IMG/VR virus record: IMGVR_UViG_3300042475_000595
Location: 1-22,932 of that record
DNA length: 22,932 nt
Source: a virus
Reading direction: 5' to 3' (one strand)
Below the pieces are notes generated by a model. That model worked only from the letters and a program-made list of their open reading frames with translations, did not search any database and was not told where the DNA came from. Numbering within the stretch: position 1 is the first letter of the stretch; the number at the start of each line of letters is the position of its first letter. Below are positions 4,537 through 13,603 of the stretch, in pieces. Made by a program: the position numbers and the translations under genes.

Positions 4537-5060
4537 TTTAGGGCGTTGTAGTAGCAAAGGTACTGCTCTACGCAGATAAGTGTACCGAGCCTTGCGGCTT
4601 CACTTGCAAAGATACCATCGGCCTCATAGGACATTTCAAAGCGTAGGTTGGGCAGGTCGTGTGGCTTGAACATATAGCAGGCGGTATCTATGTTTCCGAC
4701 TTGTGGTTGGTCGGTAGGGCGTAGCCTACCTATTTGCCCCCACGTTACGATTGAGCAATCAAGAGAATGCAAGTTGCTCCACTCCTCAAGGAACTTTGGA
4801 TGCAGCACATTGTCATCATCCAGATAGTAAACCCAATCCTCTTTGGTAAAAGATTCAGCATACAAGTCAAGGAACTCATTGCGTAGGGGATTGCCCATAT
4901 CCCCCGTGCGTGTGGAGTAATGTGTGATTGATGCGCCTGTTGCTCCCTTGAAGTCGGTAGCAGCATCCATCATGACAACCCACGTTGCATAGGCAGGGAT
5001 ATGTTGTTTTAGCCTAACGAGGTTATGAGGTCGTGAGCAGGGCGTGACTATGTAAAGCAT
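4533..5060 (-). CDS. Glycosyltransferase, GT-A fold
   Basis: The 175-residue protein starts MLYIVTPCSRPHNLVRLKQH, a typical GT-A N-terminus with an early nucleotide-binding strand. YYLDDDN at 79-84 is the DxD motif (D81-D83) that binds the metal and nucleotide-sugar. Later EMSYEADGIFA is a candidate catalytic acid region. The protein is shorter than most family 2 enzymes (about 250 residues) yet has the core fold. The start overlaps the upstream glycosyltransferase end by 13 nt. The acceptor is unknown; it could be a phage structural protein, host surface glycan or DNA. Confidence 0.78.
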   Translation of the reverse strand: MLYIVTPCSRPHNLVRLKQHIPAYATWVVMMDAATDFKGATGASITHYSTRTGDMGNPLRNEFLDLYAESFTKEDWVYYLDDDNVLHPKFLEEWSNLHSLDCSIVTWGQIGRLRPTDQPQVGNIDTACYMFKPHDLPNLRFEMSYEADGIFASEAARLGTLICVEQYLCYYNALK

Positions 5061-5986
5061 CGTAGTTCGTTTATCTTATCCATCGTGAATTCCTGCACAT
5101 ACTCGTATAACGATTCCGTTAGGTCAGCAACTTGGTTGGGGTTTTCTTTTAGCCTCTTGATTGCTCCTGCCCATTCGCTTGGGTGCTTGATGGCAATGCA
5201 GTTCTCTTTGGTGATGTATGGTGAATAGGGTTGTGTGTTGCTCACTATCAAAGCGCATTTGCTAAAGCCTGCCTCAAGCATCTTTAGGTGCGACTTGCAC
5301 TTTGCAAACTCTGATGTTGTTAAAGGCACAAGGCTCACGTCAAAGTAATTGTAGAGCTTGTGGTAGTGCGTTGGTGGCATAGTGGGCAGCCTATGGCTTG
5401 CCTTCATAATGTCGGGATAGCCATCTACCTCTGCCACATACCCTTGATAGCCTTCAAGGTTAATTGTGGAATCCTTTACGTCTGCTGCGTGGTGATTGCC
5501 TCCGATATACCCAAAGCGTACTTCTTCGCTTGGCTTTCTCTCTACCTGCCACGTTGCTACGCTAATTGCATTGGGGATGATTCGGATGTTGGTATTGTAC
5601 TTCTTGACCTTTGAGGCAAGGTGCTTGTTTGTCACCCATACCTCATCTGCTGCTTTCATAGAGCGCACGATGCGAGTTCTCATCCGCTCAACGTACAATC
5701 CCTGCAAAGGATGCGTAGGAGGCAGAACCCACCAGTCATCATTGTCAACGATTAACTTGATGCCTTCCTTGCGGCAGAGTTTCACGAAGTCATCAAACGG
5801 CTCAACAGGGAATGCACGGCTTGCAAAGATGTGAGTGACTTTAGGCCACATTTCGGGGTCTATGTCGGTAATCTTCTCAATGAAAAAGACATCTACATCC
5901 TTGTGGCATATCAAGGGTGCAAATGTCCTGTGGTGAGAGACTCCAGAGTTCTGCTTGTGGAAGGCAAGCACAAAGGGTCTAATCAT
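5048..5986 (-). CDS. Glycosyltransferase, GT-B fold (GT4-like)
   Basis: The product has 312 residues from ATG 5986, overlapping the preceding stop as ATGA. The N-terminal Rossmann half includes KLIVDNDDWW (78-86) and ADEVWVTNKHLASKV (about 113-127), the latter like the inter-domain strand and helix of GT4 enzymes. The C-terminal half has RFGYIGGNHHAADV (157-170) and, near 238-258, a KSHLKMLEAG region matching the E-containing nucleotide-sugar site. A phage enzyme of this size next to a GT-A enzyme and a methyltransferase suggests sequential glycan building. The donor and acceptor cannot be read from sequence. Confidence 0.8.
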   Translation of the reverse strand: MIRPFVLAFHKQNSGVSHHRTFAPLICHKDVDVFFIEKITDIDPEMWPKVTHIFASRAFPVEPFDDFVKLCRKEGIKLIVDNDDWWVLPPTHPLQGLYVERMRTRIVRSMKAADEVWVTNKHLASKVKKYNTNIRIIPNAISVATWQVERKPSEEVRFGYIGGNHHAADVKDSTINLEGYQGYVAEVDGYPDIMKASHRLPTMPPTHYHKLYNYFDVSLVPLTTSEFAKCKSHLKMLEAGFSKCALIVSNTQPYSPYITKENCIAIKHPSEWAGAIKRLKENPNQVADLTESLYEYVQEFTMDKINELRCFT

Positions 5987-6174
5987 AAATTAGCCTCTTG
6001 GTCTTTGAACCATTGCGACATCGCTTTGCGGTCTAAATACTTTACCCACATCCGAGCAGCTACTGCTCTGCGTTGGGGCTTGAAGGGGTAGGTGCTACGG
6101 AGCTGCGCCATAGCAATCCTCATAAACTGATCTTGCATTATTCTTTGGTATTTGAGGTGTTGCAAAAAATGCAA
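5983..6174 (-). CDS. Small basic protein of unknown function, TTG start
   Basis: The product has 63 residues and I recognise no family. The first start is TTG at 6174, and a leader motif copy (AAACCAATCG) ends 1 nt before it, which supports this start; an internal ATG (M13) is the alternative. The protein is basic, with Arg and Lys spread throughout (KPQRRAVAARMWVKYLDRK at about 33-51) and it is predicted helical. Its stop overlaps the GT-B start as ATGA. DNA or RNA binding is possible but only by charge. Confidence 0.55.
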   Translation of the reverse strand: MHFLQHLKYQRIMQDQFMRIAMAQLRSTYPFKPQRRAVAARMWVKYLDRKAMSQWFKDQEANL

Positions 6175-6175
6175 C

Positions 6176-6185
6176 GATTGGTTTG
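6176..6185 (-). promoter_or_regulatory. Leader motif copy (CAAACCAATC)
   Basis: The motif lies 1 nt upstream of the TTG at 6174. It shows 9 nt of complementarity to the GATTGGTTT repeat found 3' of the SSB-like gene. Confidence 0.5.
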
Positions 6186-6188
6186 ATG

Positions 6189-6341
6189 TTAAAGTTTAGT
6201 GTTCCAATAGTATTCGCATTGGCCGTGCTTGACAGGTATGCCAACAAAGAACGATTGGTACATATCCGTAGGTGCGGTGAATCGATAGCAGGTTTCTTTT
6301 AGAGGGCAACCTTCTCCTGTGCATTTGGTGATGTCGGTCAT
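6189..6341 (-). CDS. Cys-rich mini-protein (50 aa)
   Basis: ATG 6341 overlaps the exonuclease stop as ATGA; the TAA is at 6189. Four Cys at C7, C12, C18 and C42 (KCTGEGCPLKETCYRFTAP ... HGQCEYYW) suggest a zinc or disulphide-bound mini-domain. The pattern 'C....CPLK..CYR.TAP....YQS.F ... C.YYW' matches small proteins I recall from Bacteroidota phages, whose function is not known. It follows the RecE-like exonuclease gene and could be a cofactor of recombination, but that is only context. Confidence 0.7.
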   Translation of the reverse strand: MTDITKCTGEGCPLKETCYRFTAPTDMYQSFFVGIPVKHGQCEYYWNTKL

Positions 6342-7108
6342 AACGTGCCTACTATTGTGTACGAATCCAAGTCCTCACCCAAGATAAAGAACTGCTTGTA
6401 CAATTCTATTGCCTCCATAGTCTTGCGCTCACCCTCTGCCACAAACTCGGGACTCACCGAGTAAATGCCTATGTCAAGGCTTGCCTTGTCAATAGCGACA
6501 AAGAAGAACTTATCAATAGGAACTCCGAATAATCGGGTGTAGATAAACGCCTGCACATCGTAGCCGTACTTCTTTGCAGAGTAGGGGAATGCCCGTAGGT
6601 CGGTTGTTGTTTTCAAATCAGCCAAGAATCCTTCAGCATAGATGTCAGCCTTCGCCCTAAAGGGCAGGCCGCCAATCATACCAATCTTTGGCACCTCAAA
6701 CTCGCAGCCAGTTAGCAGGCCAAGCACGTTCTCGTTGCGCAGGAGCGCATCAGATATTCGTTGCGCCTCGTTGTACTCTTTACGGGTGCATAGGTTACGC
6801 TTGCCCTTTGCATCCTGCCACGCCTTTGCGTTCTTACTCTGCACCTCAATGACCTCGTAGTCCGCTACTCGGTGCGGCTCAAGAGCCATCAAGTGTACCA
6901 AGCGACCGACTGCAAACGCATCGGATTCATCGCTGCCGTACTTGGTGACGTAGTGGTATGTCTTTGGTGATGTCAGAAGCAGTTTACACGCAGAGGAGGA
7001 TAGGGCGTTCTTGCCCAGTACTCCGTAGTAAAAGTCATCATCTTGCATCTTTTCAAGGACTGTCTCCATGTCCCAAGTGCTTCCGTCAAGTAGTTCTATG
7101 ATTTTCAT
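6338..7108 (-). CDS. RecE-like PD-(D/E)XK exonuclease
   Basis: The product has 256 residues starting at ATG 7108. The longer frame to 7171 is rejected because the leader motif AAAACCAATC lies at 7111-7120 and the methyltransferase stop at 7122 sits just before it. Signatures are ALSSSACKLLL at 35-45 (RecE entry helix), GRLVHLMALEP (68-78), E136/E138, FRAKADIY with D155, LADLKTT with D164 and K166, and YDVQAFIYTRLF (183-194). These are the YqaJ/RecE 5'-3' double-strand exonuclease motifs that start recombination. No RecT or Beta annealase gene is visible nearby, so the SSB-like protein or a host factor may be the partner. Confidence 0.88.
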   Translation of the reverse strand: MKIIELLDGSTWDMETVLEKMQDDDFYYGVLGKNALSSSACKLLLTSPKTYHYVTKYGSDESDAFAVGRLVHLMALEPHRVADYEVIEVQSKNAKAWQDAKGKRNLCTRKEYNEAQRISDALLRNENVLGLLTGCEFEVPKIGMIGGLPFRAKADIYAEGFLADLKTTTDLRAFPYSAKKYGYDVQAFIYTRLFGVPIDKFFFVAIDKASLDIGIYSVSPEFVAEGERKTMEAIELYKQFFILGEDLDSYTIVGTL

Positions 7109-7110
7109 AA

Positions 7111-7120
7111 GATTGGTTTT
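7111..7120 (-). promoter_or_regulatory. Leader motif copy (AAAACCAATC)
   Basis: A perfect copy 2 nt upstream of the exonuclease ATG at 7108, in the short gap after the methyltransferase stop. It fixes the start of the exonuclease gene. Confidence 0.7.
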
Positions 7121-7121
7121 G

Positions 7122-8432
7122 TTAATTAAATAAAGGTAAACATTTTTTAGCGACTGCTGCAACCACGTCAACTGTTACTGCGTTACCGCATTGCTTGTAT
7201 CGTTGGGAGTTGCTCATAGGCTTTACTTCTCCATCGTAGTTGCCATAGGCCGTATGCTGATCTGGGAATCCCTGTAAGCGTTCACATTCAATAGGTGTTA
7301 GCCTACGGATTCGGTAGCCATCAAATAGGCTGATGCCGTTGTGTTCGGGTTGCGTTAGTGTAGGTGATTCATCACGCAGGGTTTTGTTGTACAAGTCCAT
7401 TGCCTTAACCTCTCCCTCCCTAAAGTCATTCCGTCTGATGGTCTCGTTGACTTTCTCGTAGGTATAATTTGGTTGAACTACTGCTTGATTGCAACTCGTT
7501 TCAAGTGTCTGCGCCTTCTGCTTTCCTACACGGCCTCTGCGAGTTTCGCTTTGGGTGCGAGAAGTGTAAATGGTATCACCGCTTGTTGCTTCTTCGTACC
7601 CTAAACTTGTGGCTGACTTTACTCGTAGAATCAAATCACTTTTACCTTGATTAAGAGCAGGAACAATACCATCAGCATCGTACACTCGGTCTTGCTGGTA
7701 GGGTTGAGTGCCGCTATTAGAATCAAGTCTAGTTCCGATTTGCTTGACCTGTACTTTTGTTGGGTCTTTGTAGCAGCAAGCACTCAACGTAGGGGCAATC
7801 CCAGCTTCGCCATAGATGAATCCTTGCTGACCGCCTGTACCACGATGACCTACTATTTCAACCCCGTGTTGTTCAGTATTTGATTTATTGTTTTCTGCGA
7901 TAGGAAGTACTCCTCGCCAATCTCCTCCTGTGGTTGTAGAATATCCGACAAGGTATATCCGCTCTCTATTTTGGGGTAGAAACCAACTTGTATTAAGCAG
8001 TTGCCATTCAAGTCTATAACCCCCAATGTCGGTAAAGGCTTGGATAATCGCCCAAAAGTCTGCGCCATCATTTGAGGAGAATGTCCCTTTAACATTTTCC
8101 CAGACAAATACACTTGGTCGGCATTCGCTAATAAGACGGATTGCTTCGAGGACAAGAGAACTTCTTTGTCCTTCCATCCCCTTTCGGTTTCCTGCCAATG
8201 AGAAATCTTGGCAAGGACTTCCAAAAGTGATGAGGTTGATTCTTGGAAGGTCTGCTCCTCGAACATTGGTAACTGAACCGACATAGGTTGAGGTTGGGAA
8301 TTGATGTTTGTAAACTGCGATTGCGTGTTTGTCTATCTCCGAGAAGTAGGATGTTATTTCATATCCTGCTCGCTCAAAGCCTAAATGGAATCCACCTATC
8401 CCACTAAACAAATCAAGGTGGTTGATCTTCAT
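7122..8432 (-). CDS. C5-cytosine DNA methyltransferase
   Basis: The product has 436 residues from ATG 8432 (ATGA overlap with the preceding stop; an ATG at 8456 is possible). Motif I DLFSGIGGFHLGFERAG (7-23), motif IV GSPCQDFSLAGNR with catalytic C74, motif VI ENVKG (112-116), motif VIII QNRERIYLVGY (154-164), and late motifs IX-X RRLTPIECERLQGFP and QCGNAV are all present. Between VIII and IX lies a region of about 230 residues with target-recognition sequence and three 'GIAPTLSA', 'GIVPALNQ' and 'SPTLTQP' repeats, as in many phage enzymes. It methylates cytosine to evade host restriction. No matching restriction nuclease is seen. Confidence 0.93.
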   Translation of the reverse strand: MKINHLDLFSGIGGFHLGFERAGYEITSYFSEIDKHAIAVYKHQFPTSTYVGSVTNVRGADLPRINLITFGSPCQDFSLAGNRKGMEGQRSSLVLEAIRLISECRPSVFVWENVKGTFSSNDGADFWAIIQAFTDIGGYRLEWQLLNTSWFLPQNRERIYLVGYSTTTGGDWRGVLPIAENNKSNTEQHGVEIVGHRGTGGQQGFIYGEAGIAPTLSACCYKDPTKVQVKQIGTRLDSNSGTQPYQQDRVYDADGIVPALNQGKSDLILRVKSATSLGYEEATSGDTIYTSRTQSETRRGRVGKQKAQTLETSCNQAVVQPNYTYEKVNETIRRNDFREGEVKAMDLYNKTLRDESPTLTQPEHNGISLFDGYRIRRLTPIECERLQGFPDQHTAYGNYDGEVKPMSNSQRYKQCGNAVTVDVVAAVAKKCLPLFN

Positions 8433-8596
8433 TTGTTGAATGTTGCTTCGTGCCATTGCTCAAATGGAACACTAACTGATGAATCGCGGTAAGCGTAACG
8501 CAAGTGTATGGTCTCAATAGTTTCAATGTCTTTTAGGATTGATTCTGACAGGCCACAGGTCTTGAGGTCTCGGAGTATTTGGGAGATAGTTTGCAT
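8429..8596 (-). CDS. Small protein of unknown function (55 aa)
   Basis: ATG 8596 is chosen over the longer frame to 8653 because a leader motif copy at 8602-8611 lies just upstream. The protein begins MQTISQILRDLKTCGLSESI and is helical. It ends with an ATGA overlap into the methyltransferase gene, so the two may be translated together. I recognise no family. Confidence 0.65.
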   Translation of the reverse strand: MQTISQILRDLKTCGLSESILKDIETIETIHLRYAYRDSSVSVPFEQWHEATFNK

Positions 8597-8601
8597 TGTG
8601 T

Positions 8602-8611
8602 GATTGGTTTT
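8602..8611 (-). promoter_or_regulatory. Leader motif copy (AAAACCAATC)
   Basis: A perfect copy 5 nt upstream of the ATG at 8596. The match to the antisense repeat at 12960-12972 extends to 12 nt. No promoter-like -7 element is visible upstream here, so the motif is not simply part of a promoter. Confidence 0.65.
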
Positions 8612-8613
8612 AA

Positions 8614-8941: not shown

Positions 8942-9046
8942 TTACAGGTTAATTAGAAATTCAACAAGGGCAAGACTGCCAATAAGGGTAAAGATAATCG
9001 CTAATGAAGCAACTGTCTTTGCAATAAGAACTTTGAATTGGTACAT
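8942..9046 (-). CDS. Single-pass membrane mini-protein (34 aa)
   Basis: An ATG at 9046 with leader motif copy at 9049-9058 opens a 34-residue frame ending at TAA 8942. The sequence MYQFKVLIAKTVASLAIIFT is followed by a second half rich in Leu, Ile and Gly (LIGSLALVEF), forming one transmembrane helix over about residues 7-33. It is conserved-looking only in its architecture; I recognise no family. A role at the inner membrane, such as superinfection exclusion, is speculative. Confidence 0.65.
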   Translation of the reverse strand: MYQFKVLIAKTVASLAIIFTLIGSLALVEFLINL

Positions 9047-9048
9047 CT

Positions 9049-9058
9049 GATTGGTTTT
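9049..9058 (-). promoter_or_regulatory. Leader motif copy (AAAACCAATC)
   Basis: A perfect copy 2 nt upstream of the ATG at 9046, overlapping the TAA of the preceding gene. Complementarity to the 12960-12972 repeat is 13 nt. Confidence 0.7.
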
Positions 9059-9314
9059 AATTGATTTTAATAATTCCTTTTGGCAAGTTGTTTTCGTAGT
9101 CAGCCCAAGTAGTAACGATAATCATATCGTTGCCTTCAAACCAACTCATTTCTTCAGCGCACTCCGTGAAGATGCAGTCTTTCTCAAGGATAGAGAACAA
9201 ACGCTTGTACAAGCCATTGTATCCCTTGTCCTTTTGATTCTCCAAGCGGTAGATAGCAAAAGAATTTTGACCTAATTCTTGGTAAACTTTGTTGACAATT
9301 TTGTTGCGGTTCAT
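9057..9314 (-). CDS. Small protein of unknown function (85 aa)
   Basis: The product has 85 residues from ATG 9314, just downstream of two leader motif copies and a Bacteroidota-type promoter. The sequence has a basic helical N-terminus (MNRNKIVNKVYQELGQNSFA) and a mixed charged middle with CIFTECAEEMSWFEGNDMII. I recognise no family. Being first after a terminator and a promoter, it probably heads a transcription unit that continues through the 34-residue membrane protein and the methyltransferase. Confidence 0.72.
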   Translation of the reverse strand: MNRNKIVNKVYQELGQNSFAIYRLENQKDKGYNGLYKRLFSILEKDCIFTECAEEMSWFEGNDMIIVTTWADYENNLPKGIIKIN

Positions 9315-9316
9315 CT

Positions 9317-9326
9317 GATTGGTTTT
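9317..9326 (-). promoter_or_regulatory. Leader motif copy 1 of a tandem pair
   Basis: A perfect AAAACCAATC 2 nt upstream of the ATG at 9314. Complementarity to the 12960-12972 repeat is 12 nt. Confidence 0.7.
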
Positions 9327-9330
9327 GTAT

Positions 9331-9340
9331 GATTGGTTTA
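9331..9340 (-). promoter_or_regulatory. Leader motif copy 2 of a tandem pair (TAAACCAATC)
   Basis: A second copy 14 nt upstream of the first, in the same orientation. It is the only tandem pair in the window and lies just below the promoter at 9349-9380. Confidence 0.6.
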
Positions 9341-9348
9341 TCTATACC

Positions 9349-9380
9349 CAAATATATAACAACTTTACTAATTATTCACA
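9349..9380 (-). promoter_or_regulatory. Bacteroidota-type promoter
   Basis: The -7 element TATATTTG lies at 9349-9356, matching TAnnTTTG. A TGTG at 9377-9380 is spaced by N20 and is a near match to the -33 TTTG. It lies between a terminator and the 85-residue gene, as expected. Confidence 0.6.
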
Positions 9381-10024: not shown

Positions 10025-10418
10025 AAGCGTTGTATAGGGTCTCTAGTTCCTGCAACCTACCACGAAGGCAAGAGCCGCAGTTGGTGGGCTTCACGGAGTC
10101 TTTGAATACTCGGTTGTAGATTCTATTCACCTCCGTCTGCTCAATAGCGGTCACGGTGTTCCTGCCTCGCATCTTGCCCACAAACTCGTATTCTTCTTTA
10201 GTCAAGCATTCTGGCTTCCTGTACCTAAATAGCTTGTTCAGTTTCTCCTTACGCGCATCGCATCCGCAATCAACGCCTGTGGCTTCGCTAAACCAATCCA
10301 CCGCAGCCTTGATGCCTGTGGCGGTTGTGATTTGCTCAATGGTATCACCCAAGCCGCTTGGCTTCTTTGTACGCTTGGTAGGTGTCTTGGCAGTCTTCTT
10401 GGATTCGCTCTCTTGCAT
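10014..10418 (-). CDS. Cys-containing conserved phage protein (134 aa)
   Basis: After a Lys/Thr-rich N-terminal tail (about 1-20), the protein has GLGDTIEQITTATGIKAAVD (22-41), then GVDCGCDARKEKLNKLFRYR with CGC, and a C-terminal TNCGSCLRGRLQELETLY. Two Cys clusters suggest zinc binding. This layout is one I recognise from Bacteroidota phages but with no assigned role. It overlaps the 3' end of the sigma-like gene by 74 nt in another frame, and its tail end overlaps the nuclease-like gene by 11 nt. Confidence 0.75.
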   Translation of the reverse strand: MQESESKKTAKTPTKRTKKPSGLGDTIEQITTATGIKAAVDWFSEATGVDCGCDARKEKLNKLFRYRKPECLTKEEYEFVGKMRGRNTVTAIEQTEVNRIYNRVFKDSVKPTNCGSCLRGRLQELETLYNAYGQ

Positions 10419-10881
10419 TTTTTAGTGTGTTGAAAATTGATCTTGCTGAAATCTTGGTCTCATCCGCTAACGTGCGAATAGACATATCGGTGTTGTGGTA
10501 CAAGGCAAATATCTTTTTGTCGTACCAATGCCAGTCAGTTTGGGTTGACCACACCCTGTCGTAAAGTTGGATGAGTTGCACCTCTGCATCTTCATTGGTG
10601 TCCTCGTAGATAAACTCCTCAAGGATGTCCACATCTACAAACTCAAACCTTGCCCTCTGGCGCATCAGGGTCGCGTACATATTGCGCAGAGTAACGTACA
10701 CGAAGAAGGTGTTGACCTCCGTTTCGTTGTACATTATTTTCTCGGCATCATCAACATACTTGTACAACCGAACGTACATCTCCTGCACAAGCTCTTGAGC
10801 AAGGTCATCACTCGCCCCGAAGCTCTTGCACATCCGAATCCAATCGGTCTGCCGCTTTGCTAATACTGCGAGGAGTCCCAA
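10345..10881 (-). CDS. Sigma-70-like factor, phage-encoded
   Basis: The 178-residue protein looks like a small sigma factor. A region-2-like segment runs from WIRMCKSFGASDDLAQELVQ to EMYVRLYKYV (14-43), with the DLAQELVQEMY core-binding helix. A region-4-like helix-turn-helix is TDMSIRTLADETKISARSIF (131-150) followed by NTLKNARERI. The start is a TTG at 10881; the segment from W14 onward needs it. It would redirect host RNA polymerase to phage promoters. Its start overlaps a 52-residue gene by 22 nt. Which promoters it reads is not known; the two promoter styles in the window are candidates. Confidence 0.82.
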   Translation of the reverse strand: MGLLAVLAKRQTDWIRMCKSFGASDDLAQELVQEMYVRLYKYVDDAEKIMYNETEVNTFFVYVTLRNMYATLMRQRARFEFVDVDILEEFIYEDTNEDAEVQLIQLYDRVWSTQTDWHWYDKKIFALYHNTDMSIRTLADETKISARSIFNTLKNARERIQEDCQDTYQAYKEAKRLG

Positions 10882-11648: not shown

Positions 11649-11974
11649 AGCGAGTCCTCAATAATCCCTTGCAGGCGTTGTATCTCATAAATCATTTGTT
11701 CGCTATCAACTCGTAGCTTTGAGTTAGCCAAGTACATCTCATTCATCTTGCCTTCGGTGAACTGGCGGTAGTCAATGAACTGCTGCAAGAGTAGGTCTGC
11801 GTAATGGCAAGACATAACATGGTGCAGTAGGTCATCCTGTACCTCCCTGCCGTTTGCTTTGTCTGCTGCTTGCTTCGCCAACCACATCGCAGTTCCTGCA
11901 AGCATAAGTTGCTTCTCCCGAATGTAAAGGTCGTGTGAGTCATCAGAAGGGTACATCGCTCGCAGGTGTTTCAT
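11645..11974 (-). CDS. Hypothetical helical protein (109 aa)
   Basis: The product has 109 residues, all predicted helix, with a C-terminal coiled coil (NSKLRVDSEQMIYEIQRLQG at about 84-103). The start at 11974 lies 32 nt inside the helicase gene and the end couples by ATGA to the next gene. It could be a helicase loader or partner because of position and length, but no motif shows this. Confidence 0.7.
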   Translation of the reverse strand: MKHLRAMYPSDDSHDLYIREKQLMLAGTAMWLAKQAADKANGREVQDDLLHHVMSCHYADLLLQQFIDYRQFTEGKMNEMYLANSKLRVDSEQMIYEIQRLQGIIEDSL

Positions 11975-12875
11975 CTAATTTTATTGGCAGCAAGTTACGG
12001 CCGTTTATCACAAACCCAACATTACCTAATACGCTCTGCAAGATTAAGGGAGTTTCAAGGGGCGTGATGCGCCCACCAGATTCCATCTCCTTGACCTTAC
12101 GAACATGGATGTGCGTGTAAATCCAATCGGTTTCGTGTGCAGCGAATCGGTGAATCACGATTACGCAGTCTGATCTGTTGCCCCACTTACCGCCACCTTC
12201 AATGTCTGATGTGTTTGGCGGCATCGCCATACCCTCGTACTTGTGGCCTTTGTAGAATGTCTTGCGCATCGCCTCCGTAACTGGGTGAGCGTTGACTATT
12301 GTGGTGACGTTGTTCTGATGGGCAAACACCCGAAGGGCAGAGGCTACCTCGTAATGGTATTCGTGCATCCCTGTCTTGCCTAATTTCTTTTGGTCGGTTG
12401 ATAGGGAGTTGTATGGGTCTATCAATGCCCCCGTATAGTTCCATTCGTTCTTGATAGAGTTCATCACCTCAAGAAGTTCGAATGCGGTAAATAGCCTGTT
12501 GCCGTCAATAAATTGGAAGTACTCGTTGATGAAGTCCAACTTGCGGAACATCATGCCCTCATCAATCCCTTGAATGGGTTTGCAAACTAGGAACTCAATT
12601 AACTTTCGCTTGAGGCTTGGCACTTCATTCTCTGCGGAGTATATCAGCCACTTCTTGCCGAAGTTATACGACTGCAAAAGCATAAGGTAAAGTAGCGTGT
12701 GGGTCTTGCCCACGTTAGCGTGGCCGACCACTACGACAAACTCACCATCTTTAAGTCGTAGGTACTGATCTACTTCATAAACACCGAGCTTGCCCGTGTC
12801 ATAGTACTTGCCTTTTAAGGCTCTCTGGAGGTATGGTAACGAAGATTCGTTAGATAGTAGGTCGGGATGTATCAT
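11943..12875 (-). CDS. RecA-fold replicative helicase (DnaB-like)
   Basis: The product has 310 residues from ATG 12875. Walker A GHANVGKT is at 51-58, a candidate catalytic Glu at SAENEVPS (80-87), Walker B GALIDPYNSL with D153, a sensor NAHPVTEA (195-202) and the late SDIEGGGKWGNRSDCVIVIH (223-242) with IHR. This fits a DnaB or RepA-type hexameric helicase core without the N-terminal primase-binding domain. The protein ends SDVPF, resembling the acidic-Pro-Phe tip of SSB proteins. A terminator and a promoter lie just upstream, so it heads its own unit. Confidence 0.85.
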   Translation of the reverse strand: MIHPDLLSNESSLPYLQRALKGKYYDTGKLGVYEVDQYLRLKDGEFVVVVGHANVGKTHTLLYLMLLQSYNFGKKWLIYSAENEVPSLKRKLIEFLVCKPIQGIDEGMMFRKLDFINEYFQFIDGNRLFTAFELLEVMNSIKNEWNYTGALIDPYNSLSTDQKKLGKTGMHEYHYEVASALRVFAHQNNVTTIVNAHPVTEAMRKTFYKGHKYEGMAMPPNTSDIEGGGKWGNRSDCVIVIHRFAAHETDWIYTHIHVRKVKEMESGGRITPLETPLILQSVLGNVGFVINGRNLLPIKLDETPASDVPF

Positions 12876-12882
12876 TGATTCT

Positions 12883-12892
12883 GATTGGTGAG
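12883..12892 (-). promoter_or_regulatory. Degenerate leader motif copy (CTCACCAATC)
   Basis: ACCAATC is preserved 7 nt upstream of the helicase ATG at 12875; the A-rich half is changed. Complementarity to the 12960-12972 repeat is 9 nt. Confidence 0.45.
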
Positions 12893-12923
12893 CAAATATA
12901 ACAAAATAATTGACATAAAAAAA
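12893..12923 (-). promoter_or_regulatory. Bacteroidota-type promoter overlapping the terminator T-tract
   Basis: The -7 element TATATTTG (12893-12900) matches TAnnTTTG. At the right distance (N19) only T residues of the terminator tract are found, so the -33 box is weak. The promoter would serve the helicase operon. Confidence 0.5.
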
Positions 12924-12939
12924 CCCCTCCGTAGAGGGG
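12917..12939 (-). terminator. Intrinsic terminator with UNCG-type loop
   Basis: CCCCTC-TACG-GAGGGG (12924-12939) forms a 6-bp stem closed by a cUACGg tetraloop, one of the most stable loops, followed by T7 at 12917-12923. It ends the SSB-like transcript. Confidence 0.88.
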
Positions 12940-12959
12940 CTTCACACAACGACCTAATA

Positions 12960-12972
12960 TAAAACCAATCAG
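12960..12972 (+). repeat. Opposite-orientation copy of the leader motif (TAAAACCAATCAG)
   Basis: The plus strand carries the leader motif here, so the minus-strand mRNA reads CTGATTGGTTTTA across the SSB-like stop codon and into the 3' UTR. This is complementary over 9-13 nt to the leader copies of the early genes. It lies about 20 nt upstream of the terminator hairpin. Confidence 0.75.
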
Positions 12973-13397
12973 AAAGGGTCGTTGCGATTTGCGAAATGCT
13001 CGGTGTGTGATGCAGGAGCAGCACTCTGACCAGTCATCCAAGCATTGAAGGTCTCTGCGTTGGCAAGGATGGTGTTGACATCGTGTTGCGCTGCACAAGC
13101 GTACTCAACCGCAGCCTTTAGAGCAACCTGTCGGATGATAGAGGCGGAACGCTCATCGTTGCCTTTAGGGGCTGATGGGGTGTAGCTTGAACCAGTAGAT
13201 GCACCATAAGGATTGGCACGTTGGATTTTAACGGTTCCCTTTTCGTTCTTGGTGTACTCTACCTCATCGCCTACTGCGTAGGGAGGGGTTTGGGATTTTG
13301 CAAAGGCAGTACCGAAGTCTCCGTTGTCAAAGCGAACCTCAAGCTTGAATAAATCCTGCCATTGGCCTGTGGGGGTGATTGAAATAATTTTTGACAT
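12969..13397 (-). CDS. SSB-like single-stranded DNA-binding protein
   Basis: The 142-residue protein has a beta-rich N-terminal part (GQWQDLFKLEVRFDNGDFGT at about 11-30, DEVEYTKNEKGTVKIQRA at about 44-61) that could form an OB-like fold, a low-complexity linker (PYGASTGSSYTPSAPKGNDE), a helix, and a C-terminal NRNDPF. The final acidic-Pro-Phe resembles the SSB C-terminal tip that binds partner proteins. The family is one I recall from Bacteroidota phages but the assignment to SSB is inferred. It is preceded by a leader motif and followed by the antisense copy and a terminator. Confidence 0.65.
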   Translation of the reverse strand: MSKIISITPTGQWQDLFKLEVRFDNGDFGTAFAKSQTPPYAVGDEVEYTKNEKGTVKIQRANPYGASTGSSYTPSAPKGNDERSASIIRQVALKAAVEYACAAQHDVNTILANAETFNAWMTGQSAAPASHTEHFANRNDPF

Positions 13398-13401
13398 AAT
13401 A

Positions 13402-13411
13402 GATTGGTTTT
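13402..13411 (-). promoter_or_regulatory. Leader motif copy (AAAACCAATC)
   Basis: A perfect copy 4 nt upstream of the ATG at 13397. It overlaps the TAA of the coiled-coil gene. Confidence 0.7.
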
Positions 13412-13550
13412 AGATAAATAGAATTGATTGCTGCTCCAAAACCTCAATACGAGCTTCAAGCTCTTGTACCTTGTTTTGTAGTGCTTGGATTTGTGCTTGT
13501 TGCACCTGCACCATCTCGGTGTAAACGTCTGAACTGAAAGATAAAGTCAT
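13410..13550 (-). CDS. Coiled-coil mini-protein (46 aa)
   Basis: ATG 13550 and TAA 13410 give 46 residues. Residues 14-41 (VQVQQAQIQALQNKVQELEA ...) have a clear heptad pattern with Leu, Val and Ile at a and d positions and many Gln and Glu, so a parallel or antiparallel dimeric coiled coil is likely. It has its own promoter and leader motif and precedes the SSB-like gene. No family is recognised. It may be an oligomeric regulator or scaffold of the SSB-like protein. Confidence 0.72.
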   Translation of the reverse strand: MTLSFSSDVYTEMVQVQQAQIQALQNKVQELEARIEVLEQQSILFI

Positions 13551-13554
13551 AACT

Positions 13555-13564
13555 GATTGGTTTT
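13555..13564 (-). promoter_or_regulatory. Leader motif copy (AAAACCAATC)
   Basis: A perfect copy 4 nt upstream of the ATG at 13550 and 8 nt downstream of the promoter -7 element. Complementarity to the 12960-12972 repeat is 13 nt. Confidence 0.7.
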
Positions 13565-13572
13565 AAGTTATG

Positions 13573-13603
13573 CAAATATACAACTTATTCTGATACCACC
13601 AAA
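13573..13603 (-). promoter_or_regulatory. Consensus Bacteroidota promoter
   Basis: TTTG (13600-13603), N19, TATATTTG (13573-13580): a perfect match to the Bacteroidota -33 TTTG / -7 TAnnTTTG consensus with the ideal spacing. The start of transcription would be near 13568, giving a leader of about 20 nt that begins with the AAAACCAATC motif. It overlaps the end of the RusA-like gene. Confidence 0.85.

Follow-up and report, generated by a model that had tools for sequence, protein, structure and literature searches.

The window analysed here is a single 22.9-kb virus record from IMG/VR, whose main genes lie on the minus strand. A coiled-coil gene (13410-13550) is followed by an SSB-like gene (12969-13397) and then by a helicase gene (11943-12875), and further downstream are genes for small proteins of 85 residues (9057-9314), 34 residues (8942-9046) and 55 residues (8429-8596) and an exonuclease-like gene (6338-7108). 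The SSB-like protein (142 amino acids) has a putative OB-like N-terminal domain and ends in DPF, with the Pro-Phe pair at its very C-terminus; its structural model (mean pLDDT 73) gave weak OB-like matches, among others, with Z of 5-6, while searches of the same protein found no match in Pfam, nothing in the PDB by Foldseek at E <= 0.001 and no match in the phages collection. Other genes in the window include a 178-residue open reading frame at 10345-10881 with weak sigma factor-like matches, possibly a regulator, a glycosyltransferase-like gene (5048-5986) and a cytosine-5 DNA methylase gene (7122-8456). By portal protein, the nearest cultured phages are the Nonlabens phages P12024S/L (39-40% identity), and together with the promoter type described below this points to hosts within Bacteroidota; a helicase scan of genome contigs found no relative.

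The exact 13-mer TAAAACCAATCAG occurs once on the plus strand (12960-12972), at the 3' end of the SSB-like gene, and twice on the minus strand, directly before the coiled-coil gene (13553-13565) and the 34-residue gene (9047-9059), so that each of these two leaders is a perfect 13-nt complement of the RNA made across the SSB-like stop codon, just as a sequence-only reading of this DNA had claimed. Near copies with one or two mismatches precede the 55-residue gene (8600-8612), the 85-residue gene (9315-9327) and the SSB-like gene itself (13400-13412, TAAAACCAATC, with 11 nt complementary). Shorter forms precede the helicase gene (ACCAATCAGAA, 12879-12889) and the exonuclease-like gene (about 7111-7120), and a second shorter copy makes the leader of the 85-residue gene a tandem one (9315-9341); this last gene was found in only one of the loci scored. 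With up to two mismatches allowed, the 13-mer has 7 matches in the window, against a mean of 0.80 in dinucleotide-shuffled sequences, none of 100 of which reached 7; a two-mismatch match on the plus strand within the helicase gene (12118-12130) is taken as chance. A chance origin of the match between leaders and anti-leader was rejected on the basis of these shuffles, of the duplex energies given below and of its conservation across loci. Leader-like sequences were also noted at a 63-residue open reading frame (5983-6174, in a region at about 6110-6185), CAAACCAATC preceding a TTG and AGACCAATTC an ATG, and relatives carry a similar AGACCAATTTATG there; this possible further target is not included in any count.

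Three leaders in the window follow a box of the form TATATTTG, a motif match to what we take to be the Bacteroidota -7 type of promoter: those of the coiled-coil gene (box at 13573-13580), the helicase gene (12893-12900) and the 85-residue gene (9349-9356), all on the minus strand. The remaining leaders are internal to operons and stand directly before start codons. The box at 13573-13580 fits a transcript start near 13568, as had been proposed, and the leaders of both the coiled-coil and the SSB-like genes lie downstream of it, so that the predicted transcript would carry two leader copies in addition to the anti-leader at its 3' end. The minus strand of the SSB-like gene contains no exact TAnnTTTG box that might serve as an internal promoter for a separate RNA.

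In the minus-strand RNA the anti-leader core UUCUGAUUGGUUU (12962-12974) is predicted to lie in the loop of a hairpin (12945-12986) whose 5' arm (12977-12986) is coding and whose 3' arm (12945-12954) is not. The arms CAACGACC (12977-12984) and GGTCGTTG (12947-12954), which as RNA read CGCAACGACC pairing with GGUCGUUGUG, form 10 bp when flanking pairs are included, and enclose a 22-nt loop (12955-12976) that holds UUUCUGAUUGGUUUUAUAUUA and, within it, the UGA stop codon of the SSB-like gene (12969-12971); the CGCAACGACC arm encodes residues near the end of the protein. An intrinsic terminator, CCCCUC-UACG-GAGGGG followed by U7 (12917-12942), comes directly afterwards. The fold of 12905-13010 is more stable than expected (z = -3.29, with 1 of 200 shuffles as stable), and Rfam, which includes a C4 model, has no family matching the window at its gathering score. 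The earlier proposal of a 3'-UTR-derived seed is sound as regards complementarity to the leaders and the terminator with its T7 tract, whereas the seed itself has to be redrawn, since it is a hairpin loop that includes the stop codon and not plain single-stranded RNA.

Related loci were collected from IMG/VR by four protein scans with SSB-like queries (from the window and from loci L083, L162 and L113), at most the best 80 being kept from each, which together with L113 itself gave 161 distinct loci after rows repeating counted contigs (L243, L278 and L283) were dropped. A scan for the leader pattern, with at least 120 matches, had yielded L113 and L162 as entry points to clades B and C, and later members of the clades were found by protein and not by leader pattern. 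The helicases of clades C and F, used as queries, led to clades E and F. Over five scans the relatives taken were the best 80 of 239, 258, 249, 286 and 342, so that all type counts given below describe the best-scoring relatives among related phages.

The sequence TTCTGATTGGTTT is present at the SSB-like stop codon in 159 of the 161 loci, and these 159 fall into 30 hairpin haplotypes; the two exceptions (L241 and L242) are the most distant loci, 32-34% identical to the clade C query, and have neither anti-leader nor leader. The bases flanking the loop core vary among loci. The SSB-like proteins of the window and of clade C have only 64 of 138 aligned residues in common, and their genes agree at 7 of 29 fourfold degenerate sites, which is near random; the identity of the loop against this background of divergence argues that TTCTGATTGGTTT is under selection. 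Each of 16 type-1 records (those with the loop of the window) and each of 8 type-2 records (described below) has exactly one inverted copy, with none for the reversed pattern used as a control, and two distant records have no inverted copy at all; the type-3 8-mer AAACACCT is too unspecific for this test (1-3 copies on either strand, control up to 2). In Nonlabens phage P12024S and in the part of Maribacter phage Panino that was covered, both distant relatives by portal or helicase, a simple count of 8-mers before starts showed no comparably clear pair of leader and anti-leader.

The stem that presents the loop has been replaced between clades: it is CAACGACC/GGTCGTTG in clade A, GTCCG/CGGAC or GCCCG/CGGGC plus an outer arm in clade B, GGTGCC/GGCACC in clade C and GAGTCACC/GGTGACTC in clade D. 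In every one of 65 distinct haplotypes of the hairpin a stem of 5 bp or more encloses an unpaired core, and the case for the stem rests on this together with the replacements between clades. Covariation within clades A and B is weak, with one double change each (39 of 500 and 27 of 500 shuffles were as good), and when arms were swapped those of clades A and B proved largely exchangeable, clade C alone giving a clear result. The stop codon lies in the loop of 235 typed loci, as UGA in type 1 and as UAG in types 2 and 3, a count obtained with a script that keys on Pro-Phe-stop and would miss other layouts. An intrinsic terminator follows at the mRNA 3' end in all 158 loci long enough to look. 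In clade D and part of clade F, a sequence similar to the 3' portion of a tRNA (GGTTCGA...) lies between the SSB hairpin and the helicase (at about 5880-5950 in L430, and in L432, L494, L498, L512 and like loci); ARAGORN called no tRNA there in four loci.

Scored by orthology, the leader is nearly universal before the coiled-coil gene (150/151), the SSB-like gene (159/159) and the helicase gene (156/156 after correction of starts, seven initial misses in clade C having been script offsets), and is found less regularly before the exonuclease gene (37/78), the 34-residue gene (15/23), the 55-residue gene (50/60) and gene g139 (5/136). No leader was found in the scored orthologs of g109, g76, g178, g134, g167, g45 and g108 (0/82 for the last), nor in those of the methylase, g50, g312, the RusA-like gene, g100, the portal gene and g166. 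In one locus (L229, upstream of 2488) a RusA-like sequence replaces the coiled-coil start, probably through a deletion or an assembly join. When a gene sits in a gap the leader is present before 29 of 29 exonuclease genes, 50 of 50 genes for the 55-residue protein and 12 of 13 for the 34-residue protein, but when the start overlaps an upstream open reading frame these numbers fall to 8 of 49, 0 of 10 and 1 of 8, the overlap call being unreliable for the helicase (82 starts flagged) and the SSB-like gene (26 flagged) because of open frames taken as spurious. Exceptions to the rule are g108, which is always leaderless although 1 nt separates it from the 34-residue gene in the window, and the 5 overlapping g139 starts and 8 overlapping exonuclease starts that do. 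Within the window, by our own gene calls, which include two doubtful starts (16288 and 15547), leaders precede 7 of the 8 non-overlapping starts between 13550 and 7108 and none of the 13 in the structural regions. The window loop forms duplexes with those 8 starts that average -14.5, and none of 2000 shuffled loops did as well, whereas with 12 other starts the mean was -6.6 and 1578 of 2000 shuffled loops were as low; where the stem must open, the gains upon cofolding were small or nil.

Thus the leader is found on starts that are independent and is mostly lost on overlap, which favours an element of translation over a DNA operator. The alternative that the inverted copy is a DNA-level operator for a phage repressor, which had been raised together with the RNA proposal, draws on an inverted 11-bp match (12879-12889 and 12964-12974) that flanks the promoter-like box of the helicase gene, but it is very improbable: the SSB-like, 34-residue, 55-residue and exonuclease leaders of the window have no promoter-like box, the presence of leaders mostly tracks gene overlap, so that they follow translation starts and not promoters, the structural-region starts (by the same gene calls) are bare, and the inverted copy falls in the loop of an RNA hairpin, together with a stop codon, on a stem that differs between clades.

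That leaders mostly follow independent starts would also suit a simple ribosome signal, for example one complementary to 16S rRNA, with the resemblance of the loop being incidental. The leaders are A/C-rich, as good start sites may be regardless, and Shine-Dalgarno sequences reportedly go unrecognised by Bacteroidota ribosomes (PMC9976891). Among 103 Bacteroidota-type 16S sequences, however, the longest run complementary to the leader averaged 6.1, which is nothing special; one 16S sequence had a run of 9, against an average of 7.2 for shuffled leaders, 5 of 100 of which also reached 9. Pairing with 16S rRNA was rejected because the complementarity is within chance, and a mere ribosome signal is hardly credible given that loop and leader differ among phages in matched fashion.

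This matched variation is the strongest evidence that the two sequences pair as RNA. In two further clades the leader is different (AAACACACACA or AACACCTAAAAC), and the loop has become its new complement: type 2, found in clade E, has the loop AGUGUGUGUGUUU and leaders that contain AAACACACA, and type 3, found in clade F, has the loop GUUUUAGGUGUUU and leaders AACACCUAAAAC. Thus relatives with an altered leader carry a correspondingly altered loop, which is the outcome that the sequence-only reading had set as a check on complementarity, and its proposal of RNA pairing between the leaders and the end of the SSB-like mRNA is borne out to the extent that loop and leaders differ in step across clades. 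In clade E, with the loop UUUUUAGUGUGUGUGUUUUUUA, the helicase start follows CCAAACACACAGA, a 42-residue gene follows AAACACACACACA and the coiled-coil gene follows CCAACACACUCACUUU, with one mismatch in the pairing. In clade F, with the loop CGUUUUAGGUGUUUCAU, the coiled-coil and nearly all 42-residue starts come after AACACCUAAAAC or close forms, with a perfect match of 12 nt to the loop in the loci read, and the helicase sequence AUGAAACACC itself pairs with the loop. The leader of the 42-residue gene is accordingly AAAAACCAAUCA in clade C, AAACACACACACA in clade E and AAACACCUAAAAC in clade F. Among the coiled-coil, SSB-like and helicase leaders there are also the core variants ACCAATT (23) and ACCAGTC (7), in both of which pairing is kept as G-U; this is modest evidence for pairing, both being transitions.

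Where the adjacent hairpin could be assigned a type, the leader before the coiled-coil gene matches it in 208 loci (159, 14 and 35 for types 1, 2 and 3), with no conflict and 18 leaderless, and that of the 42-residue gene matches in 41 (10, 11 and 20), with 2 of another type and 4 untyped, one of which (L511, AAACACCTATG) is type 3 by eye. For the helicase, 246 loci were pooled and 238 scored: the start matches the loop type in 179 of 179 type-1 and 16 of 16 type-2 loci. The 40 of 40 type-3 helicase starts, which have none of the older leaders and pair partly through coding bases (AUGAAACAC), constitute weak evidence of agreement, since these bases are partly shared by type-1 clade B and the label used (GAAACA[CT]C, applied after type 1 had been tried) also occurs in clade B starts. 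Three scored loci (L426, L437 and L510) have no hairpin within 420 nt, but it was found further upstream and is of the type of their clade; three others (L461, L472 and L479) were left out and are type 1 for both elements by eye. Inserts between the SSB-like gene and the helicase were seen in L426, L437, L510, L454 and L457, with the hairpin further upstream in the last two as well; behind its insert the L510 helicase has a full upstream type-3 leader (TGAAACACCTATAATG) and that of L437 has none. In two type-3 phages (at L481:9656 and L501:6061) one small gene has the type-1 leader AAAACCAATC, and looks like an acquired gene that has kept its old tag.

Duplexes between loop and leader of the same type have energies of -11 to -21 kcal/mol, compared to -4 to -14 kcal/mol for loops of another type, with the clade E helicase pairing about equally with the clade F loop (-13.7) and its own (-13.9). 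Most pairs within a phage are rare among shuffled loops, but the clade E helicase (101/1000), the clade D upstream gene (69/1000) and the clade C SSB gene (27/1000) are unremarkable. A tree of 66 helicase rows, rooted at its midpoint, places type 1 to either side of the root and unites types 2 and 3 as sister clades. It needs only two changes of type, each affecting a loop together with leaders of two or three genes.

A loop at the end of the mRNA thus very probably controls the leader-tagged genes by RNA-RNA pairing. The mechanism that we favour, with a probability of roughly 0.7, is that the antisense 3' end of the coiled-coil/SSB-like mRNA pairs with leaders both in cis and in trans and thereby brings about a feedback shut-off. 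The stem would keep open a loop of about 16-22 nt complementary to the leader tag, which sits a few nucleotides before (in one case over) the start codons of several genes of the replication and recombination module, called early on the basis of function. Pairing in cis would involve the coiled-coil gene, and in type-1 phages the SSB-like gene too, on the loop's own transcript; pairing in trans would involve the helicase, small membrane genes and the exonuclease, behind other promoter-like boxes. Since the helicase and 42-residue genes have promoter-like boxes of their own, pairing with them should act in trans. A restricted version, in which the loop pairs only with the 5' leader or leaders of the mRNA that carries it, as a means of autoregulation or stabilisation, and the other genes merely share a start signal, would account for the coiled-coil leader and the loop being on one transcript, for the retention of that leader in all but one ortholog and for its duplexes being among the strongest in types 1 and 3. 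It is nevertheless unlikely, as the helicase and 42-residue leaders behind their own boxes differ in step with the loop, and as, in the loci read from clades E and F, the SSB-like gene lacks a leader and overlaps the coiled-coil gene.

Antisense pairing at a start codon normally hinders initiation, and because the predicted pairing abuts or covers start codons, it would be expected to block the entry of ribosomes and so produce the shut-off. Repression is therefore the more plausible outcome than activation. A positive effect, in which the loop would stabilise or activate leader-bearing mRNAs, for instance by protecting their 5' ends, gains something from the position of those leaders behind promoter-like boxes, near the expected 5' end, and is about as improbable as action in cis only, given that the duplex lies directly beside the start codon, or over it in the case of the type-3 helicase. 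Under the favoured mechanism of feedback shut-off the active form may be a processed piece, such as the 50-60 nt RNA envisaged in the sequence-only reading, or the whole mRNA. Because the loop contains the stop codon and the 5' arm belongs to the coding sequence, ribosomes terminating on the SSB-like gene would, speculatively, open the hairpin and mask the loop, leaving the antisense freest once synthesis of the SSB-like protein ends; the position of the stop codon in all the typed loci suggests such gating.

Elements of this arrangement have counterparts elsewhere. RegA of phage T4, a translational repressor protein, silences a group of early phage mRNAs by acting where their translation begins; the likeness is in the control of a set of early genes at start sites, and the difference is that the recogniser here would be an RNA loop. 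The c4 RNA of phages P1 and P7, as described in PMC12197685, is likewise a phage antisense with complementary stretches that are probably in loops and a target at a ribosome binding region, but it has one target (ant) and a role in immunity, while here several genes on several transcripts would be addressed from the end of a replication-protein mRNA that has no Rfam match. OppZ and CarZ of Vibrio cholerae (PMC7398697) are RNase E-processed, autoregulatory small RNAs derived from 3' UTRs, OppZ involving Rho termination; there an operon's 3' end provides an RNA that pairs with the parent transcript and inhibits translation, as is proposed here, whereas the present predicted element belongs to a phage, has a closed-loop seed that includes the stop codon and would have several targets with one tag. 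Complementarity to the start region of the own operon is present here at the coiled-coil gene in types 1, 2 and 3 and at the SSB-like gene in all 159 type-1 loci. For small RNAs from 3' UTRs in general, a review (PMC9438474) states that conservation just past the stop codon may mark the seed; it describes RNA ends near the stop codons of cellular genes, whereas the phage loop surrounds the stop codon. In keeping with such RNAs, the phage element lies at an mRNA 3' end with an intrinsic terminator and has a conserved seed complementary to translation starts. Among the matches listed in our literature search, which had little coverage of subscription journals, none concerned the leader, the loop or this phage group, and the phage element appears to be a new variant of 3'-UTR antisense control, in which loop and leaders differ in step.

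The shared tag on replication-module genes that start independently, together with a loop that contains the stop codon, would be gated by the terminating ribosome and would serve as a master off-switch, may tentatively be viewed as a private, exchangeable address code that has been rewritten at least twice and that would insulate related phages from each other. The phages described here provide a comparative case in which a probable antisense loop and a number of its target leaders have shifted in concert to sequences that are completely different, and their three ready-made codes of loop and leader may be of use for probing the shut-off of replication genes and the insulation of regulatory circuits among related phages.
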